DNA from: Hyphomicrobium nitrativorans NL23
GTDB taxonomy: Bacteria; Pseudomonadota; Alphaproteobacteria; Rhizobiales; Hyphomicrobiaceae
Direction of reading: 5' to 3'
Length of the DNA: 64,000 bases
Assembly: GCF_000503895.1 (NCBI RefSeq)
Contig: NC_022997.1
Location: 1,818,501 to 1,882,500 of the forward strand
Shown: positions 2,866 to 47,646 of the stretch, in pieces
Numbering within the stretch: position 1 is the first letter of the stretch
How the letters are laid out: every line of letters begins with the position of its first letter
Made by a program: the position numbers and the translations under genes
The notes under the pieces: generated by a model
What the model saw: the letters and a program-made list of their open reading frames with translations, nothing else
The model's database searches: none
What the model was told of the DNA's origin: nothing

Positions 2866-2970
2866 AGAGCGTGATCAGTTTCGATTGAATCGAGATCACG
2901 CTCTATCATCTTTGATGAGACCTATGATTCACATTTCAGGCTGATAGGGCCTGAAATGATCATGGTCTGA
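2866..2970. repeat. Dispersed composite double-hairpin repeat, copy 1
   Basis: Two hairpins stand in tandem. The first has 11-bp arms agagcgtgatc (2866-2876) and gatcacgctct (2894-2904). The second has 9-bp arms atttcaggc (2933-2941) and gcctgaaat (2949-2957). They are joined by a spacer containing tcatctttgatgagac. Related copies occur at 7071, 40064 and 47543. This copy lies between the CDF gene and the FecR gene. Confidence 0.9.
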
Positions 2971-7070: not shown

Positions 7071-7173
7071 AGAGCGTGATCAGTTTCGATTGAATCGGGA
7101 TCACGCTCTGTCTCTTAGGTGAGACCAATGATTCACGTTTCAGGCTGGTAGGGCCTGAAGCGATCATGGTCTG
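7071..7173. repeat. Dispersed composite double-hairpin repeat, copy 2
   Basis: This copy is nearly identical to copy 1 in its first hairpin (agagcgtgatc ... gatcacgctct). The spacer and second hairpin have diverged (the second starts cgtttcaggc and closes gcctgaagcg). It fills the space between rimO and the membrane protein gene, both on the minus strand, where it could act as a processing or termination site after rimO. Confidence 0.9.
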
Positions 7174-40063: not shown

Positions 40064-40164
40064 AGAGCGTTTTCCGATCCGACGGAATCGGATCGGACGC
40101 TCTATCATCTTTGATGAGACCATGATCGCTTCGGACTGATAGGGTCCGAAGCGATCACGACCTA
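40064..40164. repeat. Dispersed composite double-hairpin repeat, copy 3 (variant first hairpin)
   Basis: The layout is as in copies 1 and 2, but the first hairpin is agagcgttttccgatcc, pairing with ggatcggacgctct. The spacer tatcatctttgatgagac matches copy 1 exactly. The second hairpin pairs cgcttcgga with tccgaagcg. The last bases, cctag, contain the stop codon of the MobA-like gene on the minus strand. Confidence 0.9.
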
Positions 40165-45225: not shown

Positions 45226-47544
45226 ATGTGTACTCAAACGCGAAGCGGTTCGTGGCCGCAAATAGATCTGCTTATCGCGCGTGTGCGGGGATGGATTGTT
45301 CCTGGGCTGATCGTCGTGCTGGCGGCGCTTGCAGTCTTCAACTTCGCTGTTTTGATCGCTGCCGATTTCCACCCTTCTGTCTTCGCCATTTCCTTGGTCT
45401 GTATGCTCACCGTTTTCGTCGCGGCGGTTTCGGTTGCGTTTGCCAGGGACGAGACGTCGCGCGCCGACGACTTCGAGCGCGAGGTGAGTTCCTACCGGCA
45501 TATGCTCGACGAGCATTTTCTTGTGTCGAAGATCGACGCGTCAGGCCGCTTTTGCGAAGCCAATCAGAATCTGCTGAACCGCACCGGCTATTCGAGCGAC
45601 GAGTTCGCTCGCCGGGTGGTCGACGGTGCCGGGTCCGGGCTTTGCAATCTTGAGCAACTTTCGGACATGTGGGCGACCGTGCGGCTCGGGAAAACATGGT
45701 CGGGCGAATATTGCGATCAGGGTAAGGACGGACAGCCGCTTTGGGTCAAGGCCATCTTCGTGCCCTGGCGCAATGCTCGCGGCGAACTCGAATGCCTGAG
45801 CACGATCGGTGTCGACGTGACCGAGCAGCGGAGTGCGGAGCAGGAGCTCAAACGCGCGCATGCGCGTCTTGAGGCTTTTATCAAGCATGTGCCGGCTGCG
45901 GTGGCGATGTTCGACACCGAGATGCGCTATGTCGCGCATACGGACCACTGGCTGCACGACTATGGGCTCAAAGAAAAGTCGCTCGTCGGGCGCAGTCACT
46001 ACGACGTGTTTCCCGAGATTCCGCAGTGCTGGAAGGACAAGCATAGCCGGATTCTCGCGGGCGCTACGGAGAGCTGTGAGGAGGAACGCTTCCAACGGGC
46101 GGACGGATCGGAGAACATCCTGCGCTGGGAAGTGCGCCCGTGGTATCTGCCCGATCAGACCGTGGGCGGGCTTATCATGCTCACGGAGGAAATCACCGAA
46201 CGCAAGAAGATGCAGGACGACCTGTGGAAGCTCGTGAAGCTCGACAGCCTGACCGGCCTGCCGAACCGTCTGCTGTTCGGCGAAACGTTGCGGGATGCGA
46301 TCGGAACCGCCGATGCGAATGGCGACCTCTTGGCCGTCACGCTGATCGATATCGACAACTTCAAGGAGATCAACGACACGCTGGGCCATGAGGCAGGCGA
46401 CGAACTCTTGAAGATCGTTGCGCGCCGCCTCGAAGATATGCTCGGCAGCACCGCCAATATCGCTCGCCTCGGGGGCGATGAATTTGCCGTGCTCATCGGC
46501 GGGCATCGTGAGGTCGACGAGATCGAAGTGACGTTGGCGCGGGTCAAACGGTTTCTGTCCGAGCCCGTAAAGATTGCGGGCGCGATGCGGTTCTGCTCGA
46601 CCAGCTTCGGTGTGACGGTCTATCCGCGCGACGCGGTGGAGCCGGGCGATCTGCTCAAGAATGCGGATCTGGCGCTCTATCGTGCGAAGAGCGTGGGGCG
46701 CGGACACATCGGCCAGTTTACGCCCGATCTGCGTGCTGCGATCAATCGCCGGGTCGAAATGCAGGAAGATGCGCTCGAAGCATTGCAGCGCGGAGAATTC
46801 GTCCTCTTCTTCCAGCCCATCATCCCTGCCGATCCGTCGGATCCGCCTTCATTCGAAGCCCTTCTCAGGTGGCAGCATCCTGTGCATGGCCTGCTCACGC
46901 CGGGCTTCTTCGAAGAGGTTTTGGAAGAGCCGCGCGTGGCGGCTGCCATCGGCGTGCGCGTCATCGATCTCGCATTGGAGCAGGTTGCGGCCTGGCAGGC
47001 GGAAGGGGTCGCGTTCGGCCGTGTGGCCGTGAACGTGACGTCGGCGGACTTCGCGTTCCGCTGCTTCGCGTCTCATCTCAAGAGCCGTCTCGACCATTAC
47101 AACGTTGCGCCGGAGCGGATCTGTATCGAGGTGACGGAGCACGTCTTCCTCGGAAGCGGGACGCAACACGTCAGCGACGCACTACAGCGGCTTGCCGAAC
47201 TTGGCGTCGAAATCGCGCTCGACGATTTCGGCACGGGTTACGCTTCGCTTTCGCATATCAAGGCGTATCCGATAGGCCGTCTCAAGATCGACCGATCGTT
47301 CGTCACCGACATGGAAGAGAACAAGGACAGCCTGTCCATCGTGCAGGCCATCGTCCAGCTTGCGCGCAGCCTGGGCCTTTCCACGACCGCCGAGGGCGTG
47401 GAGAAGGACGAGCAGGCGATCCTGCTCCGGAGCATGGGATGCGCGAGCCTGCAGGGCTTTCATTTCTCGCGGCCGAAGCCCGCGGCAGAGCTCGGTCCTT
47501 TCCTCAAAAAGATCACCGAGCACGGGGCGGCGACCGCCGCTTAG
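45226..47544 (+). CDS. Membrane-anchored PAS-GGDEF-EAL cyclic-di-GMP enzyme
   Basis: The 772-residue protein has two N-terminal TM helices (about 24-45 and 52-72), two PAS/PAC domains (about 90-200 and 215-330), GGDEF (about 345-500) and EAL (about 520-765). The cyclase motif RLGGDEF (about 415) is canonical. The phosphodiesterase residues are also intact: EALLRW, EVTEHVF, DDFGTGYASL and KIDRSFV. Both activities are therefore possible, with the balance set by the PAS domains. The stop codon TAG lies at the edge of the hairpin repeat. It is convergent with uspA. Confidence 0.94.
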   Translation: MCTQTRSGSWPQIDLLIARVRGWIVPGLIVVLAALAVFNFAVLIAADFHPSVFAISLVCMLTVFVAAVSVAFARDETSRADDFEREVSSYRHMLDEHFLVSKIDASGRFCEANQNLLNRTGYSSDEFARRVVDGAGSGLCNLEQLSDMWATVRLGKTWSGEYCDQGKDGQPLWVKAIFVPWRNARGELECLSTIGVDVTEQRSAEQELKRAHARLEAFIKHVPAAVAMFDTEMRYVAHTDHWLHDYGLKEKSLVGRSHYDVFPEIPQCWKDKHSRILAGATESCEEERFQRADGSENILRWEVRPWYLPDQTVGGLIMLTEEITERKKMQDDLWKLVKLDSLTGLPNRLLFGETLRDAIGTADANGDLLAVTLIDIDNFKEINDTLGHEAGDELLKIVARRLEDMLGSTANIARLGGDEFAVLIGGHREVDEIEVTLARVKRFLSEPVKIAGAMRFCSTSFGVTVYPRDAVEPGDLLKNADLALYRAKSVGRGHIGQFTPDLRAAINRRVEMQEDALEALQRGEFVLFFQPIIPADPSDPPSFEALLRWQHPVHGLLTPGFFEEVLEEPRVAAAIGVRVIDLALEQVAAWQAEGVAFGRVAVNVTSADFAFRCFASHLKSRLDHYNVAPERICIEVTEHVFLGSGTQHVSDALQRLAELGVEIALDDFGTGYASLSHIKAYPIGRLKIDRSFVTDMEENKDSLSIVQAIVQLARSLGLSTTAEGVEKDEQAILLRSMGCASLQGFHFSRPKPAAELGPFLKKITEHGAATAA

Positions 47545-47646
47545 AGTGTGCCCGTGTTCGATCGAAAAGGATCACGCTCCGGGGCTCTTCGGTGAGCCCG
47601 ACTATCACGCTTCAGGCTGGTAGGGTCCGAAGCGATCATGGTCTAG
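47543..47646. repeat. Dispersed composite double-hairpin repeat, copy 4 (degenerate first hairpin)
   Basis: The first hairpin is decayed (agagtgtg ... cacgctcc), while the second half cttcaggctggtagggtccgaag keeps the family pattern. Its first base pair overlaps the stop of the GGDEF-EAL gene, and its last bases, ggtctag, provide the stop of uspA on the other strand. It therefore fills exactly the gap between two convergent genes and may terminate both. Confidence 0.85.

Follow-up and report, generated by a model that had tools for sequence, protein, structure and literature searches.

A hairpin repeat family of Hyphomicrobium points one way along the NL23 chromosome, on both replication arms

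The window analysed here is a stretch of 64,000 nucleotides, positions 1,818,501-1,882,500 on the single 3,653,837-bp contig of Hyphomicrobium nitrativorans NL23. It carries four + strand copies of a repeat of about 100 bases, here called H, among genes that are ordinary by Pfam. Copy 1 (2866-2968) has cation efflux and FecR-like genes as neighbours, copy 2 (7071-7172) a radical SAM/TRAM gene, copy 3 (40064-40163) DBI_PRT and MobA-like genes, and copy 4 (47543-47644) GGDEF/EAL and Usp genes. An earlier note on this DNA had described copies of this length at 2866, 7071, 40064 and 47543 with a double-hairpin layout, and the sequence confirms this. The note had placed all of them between genes; by ORF and Pfam analysis, copy 4 overlaps at its left end the stop codon of the upstream GGDEF/EAL gene (45226-47544), and its right end reaches that of the minus-strand Usp gene.

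Each element consists of hairpin 1, a short linker and hairpin 2, in that order. Hairpin 1, with arms agagcgt/acgctct in most of the four copies, is of type B in copies 1 (2866-2904) and 2 (7071-7109), of type A in copy 3 (40064-40103) and diverged in copy 4 (47543-47580), as read from the sequence and, for copies 1 and 3, from the fold. Hairpin 2 was scored with model R1 in copies 1 (2918-2968, 74.4 bits), 2 (7122-7172, 74.6 bits), 3 (40117-40163, 49.3 bits on + and 30 bits on -) and 4 (47595-47644, 53.5 bits). This hairpin extends further than first described, with an outer stem agacc...ggtct and a tca bulge on the 5' arm of the window copies except copy 3. Its tip triplet is AGG/CCT (as in copy 1) or GGA/TCC (as in copy 3); the two arm forms given before, ttcagg and cttcgga, do not cover copy 4, which is mixed (cttcagg with tccgaag). 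The loop has the form ctGRTAGGG in the window copies and, in correction of the earlier note, reads ctgatagggcc, ctggtagggcc, ctgatagggtcc and ctggtagggtcc in copies 1 to 4. The linker had been thought to be kept throughout; we found tcatctttgatgagac in copies 1 and 3 only, with tctcttaggtgagacc in copy 2 and ggggctcttcggtgagccc in copy 4. In copies 1 (linker 2905-2917, by sequence and fold) and 3, a small tcatc-ttt-gatga hairpin separates the two main hairpins.

The 5' arm carries the bulge, which makes the hairpins asymmetric and the element's two strands unlike each other. In the bulge-less hairpin 2 at window 40117-40163 and in that at genome position 3,628,987, the 5' arm matches the 3' arm, as fold-back (quasi-palindrome) repair of DNA would give. 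Copies 1 and 3, folded whole as single-stranded DNA of the + strand, gave z values of -8.4 and -10.2 against shuffles, and their folding far exceeds shuffles on either strand. An Rfam search of the window matched only two tRNAs, and H had no match at the gathering score.

The possibility that the genome holds no further copies did not apply: the pattern KRTAGGGYCYGAARYGATCA, with up to two mismatches, matched the whole NL23 genome 98 times and its reversed control 0 times. Scans resolved 77 separate places with H in NL23; a covariance model, whose totals are a separate count, gave 110 matches in NL23, 127 in G001 (strain LHD-15) and 42 in G007. With genes called by a simple codon-composition ORF caller, without annotation, ORF overlap was at most 10% for 64 of the 77 places and more than half for nine, which bears out a genome-wide, mostly intergenic family. 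The density is uneven, with 27 of the 77 places at 0-0.8 Mb and seven at 0.8-1.6 Mb. All seven other members of the genus searched carry pattern matches, from 3 (G003) to 77 each. Outside Hyphomicrobium the matches are near background: 16 in 15 of 52 genomes, at most two in each, against five for the reversed control. A further scan returned 83 stretches, 75 from Hyphomicrobium, five from one Hyphomicrobiales MAG and single stretches from MAGs of Gemmatimonadetes, Thiohalocapsa and Anaerolineae, these three without the remainder of the element.

The family is modular, as had been proposed, with two types of hairpin 1, tandem copies of hairpin 2 and a nested third hairpin. The hairpin-1 types are tied, not strictly, to the tip variant of hairpin 2 (3/7 versus 8/1, p 0.02, in 19 classifiable places). 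Hairpin-2 neighbours less than 200 bases apart are spaced 59 bp in 20 of 20 pairs, forming tandem units of that length, and each array lies on one strand. The hairpin-2 loop holds a second, nested hairpin at 11 places in the NL23 DNA examined and in at least 12 of the 27 loci with copies in G001, inverted once (L129). Compensatory change was upheld in part. In 35 distinct copies, chosen for diversity from 47 diverse hairpin-2 copies, both partners vary at 10 of 19 pairs, in 51 cells, and shuffles gave a mean of 16.8 cells with 0 of 500 reaching 51; this control leaves the relatedness of the copies in, and 30 of the 51 cells come from one two-state tip swap (AGG/CCT versus GGA/TCC), so they represent few events. 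The earlier note had suggested selection at the RNA or DNA level; selection for an RNA function was not borne out. The Rfam search was negative. Species turnover, widely differing copy numbers and the presence of identical copies are better accounted for by a mobile DNA element.

When a chromosome is replicated bidirectionally from a single origin, each strand changes between leading and lagging at the origin and the terminus, and oriented sequences should therefore flip there. On the closed NL23 chromosome, H was found in one orientation almost throughout: 92 of the 98 pattern matches are forward and six reverse (control 0/0), and by place the count is 69+/8-. The origin region was placed by a parS-like cluster at 418-422 kb and the terminus by a dif-like site (2,297,144) that departs from the dif word at two positions; both limits rest on matches to parS and dif words. 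Between them the right arm carries 31+/1- and the left arm 38+/7- (binomial 1.5e-8 and 3.1e-6). The direction of the flanking genes does not explain this orientation and was rejected as its driver, as the 69 + copies occur in all four arrangements (++ 21, +- 19, -- 17, -+ 12).

Mismatch scoring took in 82 of the 98 matches, the 16 unscored ones including two minus copies. Exact-consensus hairpin-2 copies were 29/29 on +, 19 of them on the left arm; the counts were 22+/3- with one or two mismatches, 16+/1- with three to five and 11+/0- with six or more. The minus copies are thus not clearly old, since three of the four scored are nearly as young as exact copies; gene conversion could be another source of the young look of copies. 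At five of the eight minus places, H overlaps a predicted ORF. Near 1,742,760 lies a degenerate copy that was read as - by the model and as + by its hairpin-1 end.

For comparison we used the octamer GCGCTGGG, chosen among 6,294 words after repeat masking in the same NL23 DNA and then tried on other species. Octamer and gene-strand counts cover 564,135 or 892,253 of the 3,653,837 NL23 bases. The octamer counted 60+/0- on the right arm and 2+/33- on the left, or 95/95 with limits of 0.396 and 2.396 Mb read from the same data. It flips at 0.387-0.405 Mb and at 2.368-2.424 Mb, the latter 70-130 kb beyond the dif-like site. Because the flips lie near the origin and the terminus, the left arm of NL23 is not inverted. 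Contigs of two further species, G003 and G007, also contain an octamer flip; in G001 the octamer agrees with H on contig C2 and opposes H on C1, and near the terminus of G001 (C6) and G003 (C1) its occurrences are few and mixed. Motifs of the KOPS/AIMS type have strong strand polarity and flip at the origin and terminus. The octamer behaves like these and is a candidate for a Chi- or KOPS-type motif in Hyphomicrobium; H is polar too, but does not flip (left arm 38+/7- for H versus 2+/33- for the octamer). In the window, the octamer occurs nine times, all on + (genome 1,821-1,864 kb). A lone parS-like site with one mismatch lies at NL23 2,422,533, near the octamer switch at the terminus. A KOPS-like role for the GRTAGGG loop was dropped, as outside the repeats the loop words show little polarity (right and left arms: GATAGGG 11/10, 18/13; GGTAGGG 11/5, 6/8). 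The direction of rRNA genes as a fork marker was set aside; a 16S search gave no match in five genomes.

Related genomes agree with NL23 to differing degrees. The 77 pattern matches of G001 lie on eight contigs, seven with at least two places, and none is mixed; copies flank the parS cluster on both sides (C2), and the same holds for one dif-like site (C6). A second dif-like site in G001, nearer the E. coli word, lies at L200 (C2:948690), away from the one that resembles that of NL23. In G002, G003, G005, G006 and G007, none of the 14 contigs with at least two separate places is mixed, among the matches listed. In Hyphomicrobium sp. D-2 and H. sulfonivorans S1, two of five multi-place contigs are mixed, and at their loci (L213-L273) H opposes the octamer at 10 of 16 sites and the skew alone at two more, often in strongly skewed DNA. 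The polarity of H over the whole chromosome is well supported in the NL23 group; the one-way rule is clear for that group and not for the wider genus. In the best-sampled genomes, neither gene direction nor replication direction explains the one-way orientation.

The GC skew of these chromosomes is also unequal. In NL23 it was +0.063 on the right arm and -0.009 on the left over 892 kb; in the set of 564,135 bases, the left-arm values ran from -0.064 close to the terminus up to +0.028 close to the origin. Outside NL23, where the skew was taken on stretches of 12-20 kb, G001 gave +0.066 and -0.012, G007 -0.049 and 0.000 (contig reversed), and G003 a similar, noisier picture with two of 20 samples strongly negative; in all four species sampled, one arm is strongly skewed and the other nearly flat. 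Among 29 sites in G001, G002, G003, G005 and G007, 24 had an octamer excess (five set aside); at seven of these H and the octamer run together (absolute skew 0.054-0.066), and at the other 17 they run in opposite directions (at most 0.040). At 25 loci of G004 and G006, H runs with the octamer at four and against it at five, and the rest are undecided. About 55% of NL23 genes lie on + in the DNA examined, and the left arm is slightly + biased. Among the data that SkewDB counts as hard to explain are about 250 chromosomes whose arms differ strongly in skew, according to the available part of PMC8941118. We make no claim of a common cause for skew and repeat polarity.

A second family, Y (L149:10515-10650 and, over a longer span, L149:10515-10917), is a repeat of about 110 bp, often just past the 3' end of a gene or tRNA or a T-tract, and forms a separate group in which BLAST-level similarity to H was not found. 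Its 58 NL23 matches, merged by hand, make 40 places at 36+/4- (right arm 20/2, left arm 16/2), with 11 versus 1 in evenly placed samples; three matches in G001 agree with the direction of H on those contigs. Gene context was read for 38 of the 40 places. Gene direction may play a part here: 25 of the 34 + copies with context have a + gene on the left, which often stops no more than 20 bases away, and a tRNA gene of matching strand is found close to four + copies and one - copy. The MITE-like family X (L082:4132-4321, L087:663-829) was mixed, 4/3, in a small sample all from the left arm. Repeat W (L076:1790-1940 and four more places) was on + at two right-arm places and on - at three left-arm places; all five would fit a replichore flip, in a sample too small to decide.

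Insertion sites of H differ between species. Among 27 G001 loci, two match the position of a recognisable NL23 copy, and eight have a flank match in the NL23 DNA examined, among the matches listed. In NL23, one such site (L131) looks empty and another (L134) may hold a remnant; the intergenic DNA is too diverged for the ortholog comparison to resolve an exact empty site or a target duplication. At the left edge, 48 of 67 hairpin-1-like starts follow T (the 67 include chance matches), and at the right edge AG follows GGTCT in 39 of 68 right ends. We regard H as a non-coding, non-autonomous mobile hairpin repeat family of Hyphomicrobium, like MITEs and REPs in size and place.

MITEs are short, non-coding and dispersed between genes. 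H shares these features, and no transposase of its own was seen in a search for Y1_Tnp only; H differs in that no clear terminal inverted repeats or target duplication came to light, and the MITE-like X was unoriented in our sample. Like the REP/BIME elements with RAYT (in the available part of PMC2817692), H consists of short, mostly intergenic palindromes in many copies and clustered arrays. H differs from them in lacking a GT(A/G)G head, its hairpin consensus starting with AGAGCG and AGACC; in arrays that are direct and not alternating (20/20 close pairs, one strand); and in an orientation that, within the NL23 group, is tied to the chromosome. A REP/RAYT origin was rejected because the Y1 transposase (PF01797) was absent from all six Hyphomicrobium genomes, with 5 of 14 control genomes positive. 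The Bordetella BRE are intergenic repeats of 75-91 bp, reported as not co-oriented with the fork, whose tandem number varies between species, as in H; the available part of that paper (PMC3110155) makes no mention of one orientation along the whole chromosome. No printed precedent for chromosome-wide one-way repeats was found in the literature within reach, which mostly leaves out subscription journals and includes parts of PMC3110155 and PMC10030826.

We consider it an even chance that H is a mobile hairpin repeat whose insertion is made, or survives, in one parental strand chromosome-wide, regardless of fork direction. In this reading, an enzyme would act on single-stranded hairpins, and insertion would thus enter one chosen parental strand, so that new copies would be made or survive in that strand only, whichever way the fork runs. 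The strand choice would have to be set over the whole circle; it could come from old strands being inherited unequally, from single-strand transfer or from selection for co-orientation. As Y, for which no relation to H was detected, obeys the same rule, the asymmetry probably belongs to the chromosome or the cell cycle rather than to H.

Selection for co-orientation, under which misplaced copies cause harmful inversions or H serves as a circle-wide polarity signal (for example, for DNA entering the bud), is rather doubtful. It needs no strand memory, as the sign would pass down within the clade, and it agrees with the mixed orientation of X in the few copies sampled and with three minus copies of one or two mismatches that could be young and unpurged. 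However, direct repeats should do equal harm through deletions, and exact-consensus copies are already 29/29 on +; a span from three pattern matches in G003 to 127 model matches in G001 speaks against the need for a signal.

Insertion coupled to the lagging strand, followed by an arm-sized inversion or combined with mostly one-way replication, is unlikely. Such a history would agree with a left arm nearly without GC skew and with slightly more + genes, and with the predominant opposition of H to the octamer in D-2 and S1. Against it, the octamer flips in NL23 and inside contigs of G003 and G007, which shows an arm that is not inverted, and exact-consensus copies on the left arm are 19/19 on +; the skew is more negative close to the terminus than close to the origin, whereas forks overrunning the terminus would leave the opposite pattern. 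Given the octamer flips, we hold both an inverted left arm and one-way replication unlikely.

Insertion into DNA that arrives by Hfr-like conjugation, with one chromosomal strand transferred, would be expected to give one polarity on both arms, and the crowding of H at 0-0.8 Mb agrees with it, yet no steady fall in density runs around the circle; we think this very improbable. A gene-linked orientation, with H or Y acting as terminators or 3'-end elements behind genes, has scant likelihood: the gene and tRNA neighbours of Y favour this, but H occurs in all four gene arrangements, and with genes only about 55% on +, Y still has only 4 minus copies in 40. An assembly or tool artefact, for which nothing spoke, can be practically dismissed, as the assemblies of several species agree, reverse matches occur on other contigs and the NL23 control gave 0.

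Returning to insertion in one parental strand, an extended form would give one-way repeats and one-armed skew a single cause, namely that the parental strands are non-equivalent over generations in a budding bacterium. For example, the sister with the old Watson strand would be favoured in the lineage that leaves descendants, and single-strand insertions and deamination would be kept on one strand only. We regard this as a long shot, because a pure inheritance model would make a heavy demand, namely that at about 90% or more of divisions the lineage that survives is that of one particular sister, and because Caulobacter tests were negative. About 70% of E. coli cells are reported to retain the old strand at the old pole, and tests in Caulobacter and Bacillus, cited in the same paper, found no strand preference (PMC8379921, available part). 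A model exists for retention of template strands by mother cells (PMC6532511, available part). In the budding relative Hyphomonas neptunium, forks travel along both arms, and one sister origin halts at the stalk base and later enters the bud (PMC6650430, available part).

The octamer flips and H and Y do not, which points to some process able to distinguish one strand from the other all around the chromosome. With a repeat family that keeps a record of strand choice, questions of strand inheritance could become testable.
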